47,894 nt of DNA from Candidatus Oscillochloris fontis (GTDB taxonomy: Bacteria; Chloroflexota; Chloroflexia; Chloroflexales; Chloroflexaceae): assembly GCF_004138135.1 (NCBI RefSeq), contig NZ_RYFD01000034.1, forward strand, positions 1 through 47,894, read 5' to 3'. Under the pieces are notes generated by a model that did not search any database, was not told the DNA's origin, and worked only from the letters and a program-made list of their open reading frames with translations. Position 1 is the first letter of the stretch. Each line of letters begins with the position of its first letter. Of this stretch, positions 44,145 to 47,351 are shown piece after piece. The translations under genes and the position numbers were made by a program.

Positions 44145-44150
44145 ATTATA
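44145..44150 (-). promoter_or_regulatory. Consensus -10 box of the NHL lipoprotein gene
   Basis: On the minus strand this reads TATAAT, 36 bases upstream of ATG 44108, which has its own GAGG. The -35 position does not match consensus. The box is next to the left 15-bp direct repeat of the AT-rich patch, so the insertion happened immediately upstream of this promoter. Confidence 0.45.
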
Positions 44151-45387
44151 CCATCTCACCTCTCCTGAAACCTAGAGATTCAGGGGATGCCCATACGGGT
44201 GTGGCATGGGCTTTACGCAATATGGGAAGATTTGAATGTAGTAATAAAAGCAACTGCTTACCAATAATTTCAGATAATCTAACAGGTACTGCATTTCCAA
44301 TCTGCCTCATTGCCTCACCCCAAGCACCAGTAATAATGAAATCCTGCGGGAATGTTTGAATTAACTTTGCTTCGAATATAGTAAAGTAGCGAACTGATCC
44401 ATCTTCATAGCGGATCAAATTTTCACCACCAGGCACACCATGTCCACCCGCTTTGATGGTTTTCGAGGGTTGGTCAATCTTACTACCTGAATGGCCTGGG
44501 TAGATACGAGCACCACCCTTAAAGATGTGATCTGGAATATTATGGTCTTCCTGTGGGTGTGGAACGCCTACCAGTGCATCGCGAATAGTCTGCCAAGGAA
44601 GTTCTTCTGGTGGAAACATTCCGTACTTCTGCTGAAGCAGAGATTCGATCAAAACATTCTGCTGGCGGGGTAGCTCGTGGCGATCCCAATATTCTGCAGT
44701 AACGAACTTATCCCAGTTCAATCTATCCTCGGTATGTGTGAATTGTGGGAACGTCCATTCAACATCCAAGTCGGAGCGAATACCAATGATCACCACTCGT
44801 TCCCGTTTCTGCGGGATACCATAGTGAGCTGCATTGAGCAATTTGTACTCAACTTTATATTTTATATCATTGTATTGATTCGTTGTGATTTTTCTAAGTC
44901 TATTGAGATGATGCAACCAATCTTCATTTTCTTTGATGGTGCAAGTTGGGTACGTTAGACGAAGAATAATATAATCAAAATACTCAGCGAAAGATGTACG
45001 TAGTAAACCCTTGACATTTTCAAAAAAAAACGCTTTCGGCTGAAGTCGTTCAATGCACTTGATCGCATAGGGAAACATATCCCGACTATCGTGATGAGCT
45101 TTATGCTTTCCACCTAATGAGCTTGATTGCCTCCATCCGGTTGGAACTGCCTTCCCTACATAGATAGGAAAGTCATAGGAAAGTCGATTTAACTCAGCAT
45201 ACCTTTTATAGATAGGATTGCTTCCTGTGTAGTAAAGAGCATAAACGCCAGTTCCAGAAAATCTTTCTGGTGGTGGCAGACAATGAACTGGTGTTCCGTT
45301 AAAAAAACGAACAGCATCTTTAATAAGTTCAGCAAAAGCTTCGTTGTGGTATATATGCTTGTTTCTTTCAAAAGATTTTTGTATCAT
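44146..45387 (-). pseudogene. Decayed Eco29kI-type R-M locus: restriction N-terminus fused to methyltransferase C-terminus
   Basis: A 413-residue chimeric ORF. Residues 1-87 match the N-terminal half of the GIY-YIG endonuclease Eco29kI ('AFAELIKDAVRFFNGTPVH', 'PPPERFSGTGVYALYYTG', 'PIYVGKAVPTGWRQ'). Immediately after, from residue 88, it becomes the C-terminal two thirds of the partner C5 methylase ('SLGGKHKAHHDSRDMFP', 'FFFENVKGLL' motif VI, 'PQKRERVVIIGIR' motif VIII, 'QIGNAVPV' motif X). Lost are the nuclease's downstream catalytic Arg/His/Glu/Asn and the methylase motif I and PCQ cysteine, so neither activity should remain. The C-terminal tail runs out through a 15-bp direct repeat into flanking DNA. 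Codon use is AT-rich, unlike its neighbours, implying horizontal origin. The upstream frame is open to 45489; ATG 45387 is the homologous start. Confidence 0.9.
44177..44191 (+). repeat. 15-bp direct repeat, left copy
   Basis: GATTCAGGGGATGCC, identical to 45633-45647. Similarity continues loosely beyond (CCATACGGGTG against CCATAGGCGTT). The two copies bracket the AT-rich R-M remnant, so they may be the target duplication or attachment-site halves of an insertion. Confidence 0.65.
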
Positions 45388-45632
45388 TATAATGGTTTTT
45401 GTCTTGTGTATATCAATGAAGGTTACTATTGAACCGTACAATTTCCGTTTAACAGAAAGGAATATACCATATTTTCTTTGCGAAAGCAAGTATATATGAA
45501 TGATTATTTGATATAAAGCTTGCCCTGGTTTGTTCTGTTCAAGAGGGAGTTTTCGAGATGAGAGCTTCCCAACTCATGTTGAACCTATCGCCTTGTCGCA
45601 ACCAAGCATGTGCAAAGATGCTACAGGCAAAC

Positions 45633-45647
45633 GATTCAGGGGATGCC
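45633..45647 (+). repeat. 15-bp direct repeat, right copy
   Basis: GATTCAGGGGATGCC, identical to 44177-44191 and in the same orientation, 1,441 bp apart outer to inner. It marks the right limit of the AT-rich section; sequence to its right returns to the local GC-rich style. Confidence 0.65.
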
Positions 45648-45701
45648 GCCCCATAGGCGTTCGGTTACGGAGGGTATCATCCTCGGTGGTACACCCTATC
45701 A

Positions 45702-45800
45702 ACCGCAGAGGACACCGAGGGACGCAGAGGGATGGGTTTTGCGCTCCCTGTGGTTACGACCTATGGTTCTTCCTCTGCGTACCTCTGCGTCCTCTGCGGT
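45702..45800. repeat. 99-bp inverted CGCAGAGG repeat
   Basis: ACCGCAGAGGACACCGAGG at the left and CCTCTGCGTCCTCTGCGGT at the right form inverted arms containing CGCAGAGG motifs, around a ~45-bp centre. It resembles the dispersed 'accgcagaggacgcagagg' repeats common in many bacterial genomes. It codes for nothing evident. Confidence 0.7.
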
Positions 45801-47223: not shown

Positions 47224-47260
47224 GTCTACTCCGTATGAAAGTGCGGTGAAGGAATATCGC

Positions 47261-47351
47261 GTAGGGGCGCGTCGTGACGCGCCCCTGGCGTCCCCACGCA
47301 ATACGTCGCCGCGATCATCGCGCCGGAGGGCGCGTCACGACGCACCCCTAC
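47261..47351. repeat. 91-bp GTAGGGGCGCGTC hairpin repeat
   Basis: GTAGGGGCGCGTCGTGACGC at the left is answered by GCGTCACGACGCACCCCTAC at the right, with a further GGGCGCGTC/GACGCGCCC pair. The outer GTAGGGG/CCCCTAC ends are as in the 73-bp family, but the arms and centre differ. It lies 38 bp upstream of the aminotransferase start codon, within its promoter region. Confidence 0.75.

Follow-up and report, generated by a model that had tools for sequence, protein, structure and literature searches.

A single open reading frame of 413 amino acids in Candidatus Oscillochloris fontis (minus strand, 44146-45387 of the window, i.e. of the whole analysed stretch of 47,894 nucleotides) begins as the N-terminal half of an Eco29kI-like nuclease and passes directly into a C5-methylase that lacks its start. 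It is most likely a recent deletion pseudogene of a restriction-modification (R-M) pair, preserved as a clean chimera. We consider with good confidence, if short of certainty, that one recent deletion in an acquired Eco29kI-type pair produced it and that both enzymes would be dead.

The reading frame starts with ATG at 45387 and ends with a stop codon at 44146-44148. Residues 1-88, together with the first two bases of codon 89, constitute the nuclease half (45122-45387, minus strand), as delimited by Pfam, phmmer and the junction alignment. Positions 1-53 of the 164 in the RE_Eco29kI profile (PF09517) match residues 41-93 (E 1.9e-17 for the whole protein), and this partial match scores 64 bits against a family cut-off of 30.8. 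In a phmmer search of the PDB, residues 4-90 correspond to residues 25-111 of the Eco29kI nuclease chain 3mx1_A (E 2.7e-38), the match stopping at chain residue 111 (tag numbering). The methylase part comprises residues 90-383 (44239-45120, minus strand), from the Ser of PCQPFS onwards, and is defined by Pfam, the relatives and invariant alignment columns. Here, positions 72-322 of the 324 in the DNA_methylase profile (PF00145) match residues 87-379 (E 1e-38 for the whole protein), with 134 bits against a cut-off of 22. The earlier note, made from the letters alone, had described one frame switching from Eco29kI-like nuclease to C5-methylase within two or three codons; Pfam and phmmer agree, and the switch falls at codons 88-90. 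Past the conserved methylase end, a C-terminal tail of about 30 residues (44146-44238, minus strand) passes through a 15-nucleotide repeat, whose first copy occupies codons 399-404, into GC-rich flank, so that the last residues of the chimera are encoded outside the AT-rich island described below. This long tail is possibly one sign of decay; tails vary in intact relatives too.

At the join, which is known from one assembly, an alignment anchored at the Gln codon gives CAA TCA AG C TCA TTA for the window. With the first base of CAA numbered 0, the window's A at +6 is shared by 23% of nuclease rows and its G at +7 by 97%, and no methylase row has either; at +9, +10, +13, +15 and +16, every methylase row carries the window base. 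The Gln codon lies at 45129-45127, nuclease letters continue through 45122, and methylase letters begin at 45120. The break is therefore placed at 45121, five nucleotides beyond CAA, with 0-1 nucleotide in common between the two ends; within the junction codon 89 (AGC, 45121-45123, minus strand), AG derives from the nuclease and C is assignable to neither side. The intact nuclease of a genome from the host's family (G003) likewise has TCAAG after its Gln codon. A deletion through short homology around CAA, as was originally suggested, is rejected on the letters at +3 to +7, since the nuclease sequence extends five nucleotides past that codon. Among the 68 relatives with both motifs, the distance from the nuclease Gln to the methylase Gln is 602 bp in 43, 605 in six, 599 in six and 601 in four, while the remaining nine have other values, one of them -4,795 through a rearranged locus. 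Of the three closest relatives, two (L064 and L066) show the 605-bp distance. On these alignments, the reading frame would be explained by a single deletion, about 602-605 bp long, whose ends share next to no homology, and a loss of 602 or 605 bp gives exactly the frame shift that suffices to fuse both genes.

Intact counterparts of both genes were found in many genomes. A scan of one genome per species yielded 103 relatives, of which 80 were kept (L064-L143), with a sampling bias towards the methylase tail, from which five of the six search peptides were taken. Six loci cut by contig ends were set aside (L078, L088, L105, L130, L136 and L141), leaving 74 assessable, among which L098 was retained although it starts at nuclease residue 9 at a contig end. 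A typical relative encodes a nuclease of about 214 amino acids followed directly by a methylase of about 370 or more, usually in a different frame. The closest are L064 (85% identity to the nuclease half and 75% to the methylase tail), L065 (Pseudoduganella danionis; 83% and 71%) and L066 (82% and 74%). Relatives in which both genes are separate and complete are what a pseudogene of such a pair should have. They bear out the proposal of an in-frame deletion chimera of an Eco29kI-type pair, and they set the deletion ends at nuclease codon 89 and at the Phe/Ser codons of PCQPFS. The same fusion conserved in many genomes, which the earlier note had named as the observation that would speak against it, was looked for: the architecture of the chimera occurs in 0 of the 74 assessable loci, on which a conserved fused architecture is rejected, and it was not seen in the other 40 genomes of the family. 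The family does hold one close nuclease, that of G003, which is full length (214 amino acids) and 91% identical over the shared part. This intact Eco29kI-like gene (L057, 1-784) is followed by GC-rich sequence and by a contig end about 140 bases on, with no methylase before that end, and the sole methylase match in the 850 contigs of G003 is distant (30%). The missing partner may reflect fragmentation of the assembly or a solitary nuclease.

The deleted segment spans both active sites. According to passages of PMC1952068, the active site of R.Eco29kI consists of Y49, Y76, R104, H108, E142 and N154. The chimera retains Tyr49 and Tyr76, as counted in the translation; R104, H108, E142 and N154 lie beyond the join, so that four of the six residues are absent. 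From the methylase, approximately the first 75 residues are missing, and with them 21 of the 113 columns that are invariant among 24 methylases, including the FSGxGG region and PPC; the profile match begins at position 72, past SAM motif I and the catalytic Cys. We take the FSGxGG region to be the SAM-binding motif I and the Cys of the PCQ motif to be the catalytic residue of C5-methylases. After the join, 90 of the 92 invariant columns are unchanged, with T replaced by S in one of the other two and M by L in the second, and residues 90-383 retain the motifs ENV and QxRER, the target-recognition region and the C-terminal motifs. An initial description, in which exactly the methylase Cys and the nuclease catalytic residues had been removed, is right in that both centres are hit and too narrow otherwise, as two nuclease tyrosines are kept and some 75 methylase residues are gone. 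Because catalytic residues are missing from each part, both enzymes are very probably dead.

Little decay has accumulated in what remains. At near-invariant positions, no residue of the nuclease half deviates (70 rows) and two do so in the methylase tail (81 rows), compared with 0-3 and 0-7, respectively, in intact rows. About 120 bases upstream of the chimera (45388-45512, minus strand) are also conserved in front of the intact G003 nuclease gene. Within this region, a promoter-like TTGCTT (45484-45489, minus strand) and a TATATT (45461-45466, minus strand) separated from it by a 17-nucleotide spacer were seen by eye and are absent from the promoter scan output. Between the nuclease half and G003, dN is 0.035 and dS 0.69, values that mix time before and after the deletion; against the closest methylases dS is saturated. 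With 90 of the 92 invariant positions and the upstream region preserved, the deletion looks recent. A product still under constraint would leave the same pattern, and continuing selection on the gene would likewise be consistent with the open frame and the conserved upstream region.

The locus lies in an AT-rich island (44192-45632) in which 300-base windows have 34-49% GC, compared with about 56-70% in the flanks. The island is bounded by two perfect copies of the 15-nucleotide direct repeat GATTCAGGGGATGCC, at 44177-44191 and 45633-45647 on the plus strand, and the whole genome has no further copy at up to one mismatch. The repeat was spotted by eye before its statistical test, in which 19 of 19,965 random pairs of 200-base stretches (from 400 kb of the genome) shared at least 15 nucleotides. 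A 14-nucleotide version allowing up to two mismatches finds the same two places in the window only, and 17 of 100 shuffled versions also give two. Direct repeats at the island ends are expected for an R-M insertion with target duplication. R-M systems are described in parts of PMC3031569 as inserting with long, variable target duplications, a mode attributed to Nobusato et al. 2000 as cited there and in PMC3874152. The present island resembles this mode in placing an R-M locus between direct repeats, and the duplication itself would here be a putative one. A plain target duplication is weakened by the right flank, which from 45638 is a dispersed repeat: part of 45638-45710 has 17 further matches in the host genome and none in five genus relatives. 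The segment 45638-45800 is the start of this dispersed repeat and contains an imperfect 29-nucleotide inverted repeat (45702-45730 and 45772-45800). Another dispersed repeat occupies 47240-47299, with 18 further matches in the host genome (85-100% identity) and shorter ones in genus relatives. In those relatives with a DNA match to each of the two flanking genes, the matches lay on different contigs; ten flank stretches were retrieved, and an unoccupied site was not found.

We postulate the following history. An Eco29kI-type R-M pair would have been acquired horizontally and would have come to lie between the two repeat copies, perhaps by an insertion of the kind just described. In the ancestral layout, the nuclease gene would have stood first, and the methylase gene would have followed in another frame, either overlapping it or directly adjoining it. 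A single loss of about 602-605 bp would then have fused nuclease codon 89 to the methylase at the Phe/Ser codons of PCQPFS. By chance, its length would have brought the two frames together, leaving an open frame whose end now lies outside the island.

R-M systems are regarded as difficult to lose, as residual nuclease kills cells that lack the methylase. The earlier note had argued that the joint loss of both activities avoids a lethal imbalance. This argument fails as stated, as passages of PMC11324026 report that E. coli cells that lost an Eco29kI plasmid underwent post-segregational killing and that none survived. A joint loss of the two genes is the very setting in which such killing occurs, and survival has to be explained differently: for instance, the genome may have offered the nuclease hardly any target sites, the nuclease may already have been dead, or another methylase with an overlapping specificity may have protected the DNA. 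As to the last, methylases of overlapping specificity can attenuate killing (PMC3874152, in part); the PF01555-type methylase of a genome from the host's order (G413) has a best match of 25% identity in the host genome.

An earlier dead nuclease is a refinement of the single-deletion reading and compatible with it: the nuclease would have died first by mutation, the later joint deletion would have been neutral, with no killing to escape, and the chimera would be a second step of decay. We regard this sequence of events as a serious possibility, at slightly below even chances. In eight of the 74 assessable loci, the nuclease gene is disrupted or shortened and the methylase is still present, and the methylase core is lost in none of the 74. 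The damage to the nuclease gene is a deletion, rearrangement or truncation in L070, L114, L122 and L127, and a frame shift, stop or early end in L095, L102, L120 and L138; many loci in the set come from metagenome assemblies, where small frame shifts may be sequencing errors. L114 was considered as a second case of the same deletion on a single-frame read, and was rejected: its nuclease residues 6-74 adjoin a methylase that carries one frame shift, making it a nuclease deletion. Against a nuclease that died first stands the retained nuclease half, unchanged at near-invariant positions, although mutations in the deleted half would be invisible.

The scarcity of target sites is pronounced. By analogy with Eco29kI, the ancestral system presumably recognised CCGCGG. 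The host genome of 4.46 Mb contains 32 such sites compared with roughly 2,100-2,300 expected, an expectation scaled from the window or from the 448-kb figure. There are none in the window (24.4 expected) and none in the window plus a 400-kb sample (448 kb; 215 expected), making CCGCGG the most depleted of the 64 palindromic hexamers. Fifteen of these 64 fall below 0.1 of expectation; other scarce palindromes in the 448 kb, as observed over expected, are GGGCCC (1/130), CTCGAG (4/206) and CGATCG (7/323). For 56 non-palindromic GC-only words, the median ratio is 1.00 or 1.03 and the lowest 0.79 or 0.54, depending on the model. The mirror control word GGCGCC, with 395 occurrences in the genome and about 0.07 of expectation in the sample, is itself depleted. 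Relatives are equally poor in CCGCGG (G035, 5 sites; G036, 39; G037, 31; G002, 26), and a PF09517 search of these four genomes gave no match. The depletion was considered as an imprint of this locus and rejected: because relatives free of PF09517 are as poor, and with GGCGCC and other palindromes scarce too, it characterises the lineage and is not attributable to the locus. Such scarcity would nevertheless lower the cost of methylase loss and may have made the loss survivable. A bolder version, in which the lineage had purged CCGCGG, joint loss became non-lethal and the chimera is the scar of an escape from R-M addiction through depletion of target sites, is in our view doubtful, at perhaps one chance in a handful. 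Were it true, site-poor genomes should lose the methylase core of R-M loci more often than site-rich ones.

Compared with the single-deletion pseudogene, it is distinctly improbable that the chimera is kept as a functional, catalytically dead DNA-binding protein, in which the methylase recognition region would bind CCGCGG-like sites and the nuclease half would be an appendage. The open frame of 413 codons, the conserved upstream region and the 90 of 92 invariant methylase columns would suit such a protein. So would the AlphaFold2 model in part, as most ten-residue blocks of residues 181-310, the recognition region, reach a pLDDT of 81-98. The mean over the chimera is 63, however, and blocks within residues 1-130 range from 24 to 52, with residues 1-131 mostly below 50. 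The intact L064 methylase, modelled as a control, has a pLDDT of 84, and the region deleted in the chimera includes its first four strands (residues 2-68). This contrast stems partly from the alignments (39 rows, mostly of half length, for the chimera and 24 full rows for the control), and is suggestive only; the product, if made, would probably be unstable. A Foldseek search with the chimera model gave 22 matches at E <=0.001, all of the C5-methylase family, with TM-scores by query length of at most 0.33. The functional protein is further disfavoured by its absence from the other family genomes and assessable loci, by the few CCGCGG sites available to it in the genome, and by recency alone accounting for the missing decay. 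The suggestion of a dead DNA-binding protein is hence weakly possible, as the recognition region is modelled with confidence and residues 1-131 are not.

Least probable of all is an assembly error or strain mixture in which an intact locus had some 600 bases skipped: the genome is a draft of 139 contigs with an estimated completeness of 99.99%, yet no collapse-prone repeat lies at the join, the locus DNA has no second copy in it, a profile search finds no other PF09517 match, and the six further C5-methylase reading frames (PF00145) are all distant from that of the chimera.

Two further natural in-frame joins of different structure were encountered among the relatives. In Thiothrix eikelboomii (L070, 3866-5323), about 40 first nuclease residues are in frame with a complete C5-methylase. 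Like the chimera, it joins a nuclease start to a methylase; it differs in having only those 40 or so nuclease residues and a methylase that is complete, including PCQPFS. In a genome of the host's order (G191; L059, 2536-4089), a PF01555-type methylase ends in TSPPYLN and reads on, without a change of frame, into an Eco29kI-like nuclease (Pfam profile positions 3-128 of 164), in which short PATCNLQ-type repeats take the place of the C-terminus. A member of the same genus, G413, has both genes whole between the same neighbours (L062, 1499-3573). This join, apparently also formed through deletion, differs from the chimera in that the methylase, of PF01555 type, comes first and the nuclease second. 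Literature searches aimed at natural R-M fusions or remnants returned no paper on them, and we make no claim of unreported status beyond these searches.

Taken alone, the locus is a decayed gene pair. The apparent one-step loss of both catalytic centres in a genome nearly free of target sites offers a concrete case for when R-M addiction fails, and a natural in-frame join of nuclease and methylase by deletion bears on the origin of fused R-M enzymes. Both parts of the chimera match the Eco29kI system (R.Eco29kI, PDB 3mx1; M.Eco29kI; site CCGCGG); its best copies on E. coli and Salmonella plasmids align in two pieces to 92% of the query, with 63% identity. A DNA search of plasmids with the locus gave no match, and viral contigs held one relative of the methylase. 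In Eco29kI, the nuclease gene precedes the methylase gene with overlapping stop and start (PMC3039593, in part), whereas the chimera is one reading frame without the second half of the nuclease and the first fifth of the methylase. Another parallel is the engineered RM.Eco29kI, in which, as described in parts of PMC3039593, both full enzymes are joined via two Gly codons and are active. A fused R-M enzyme of Type IIC has both catalytic domains complete in one polypeptide, as RM.Eco29kI does; in the chimera both are incomplete. The chimera resembles RM.Eco29kI in being a single polypeptide with the nuclease part first and the methylase part second, and differs from it in that about 602-605 bp, spanning both active sites, are gone.
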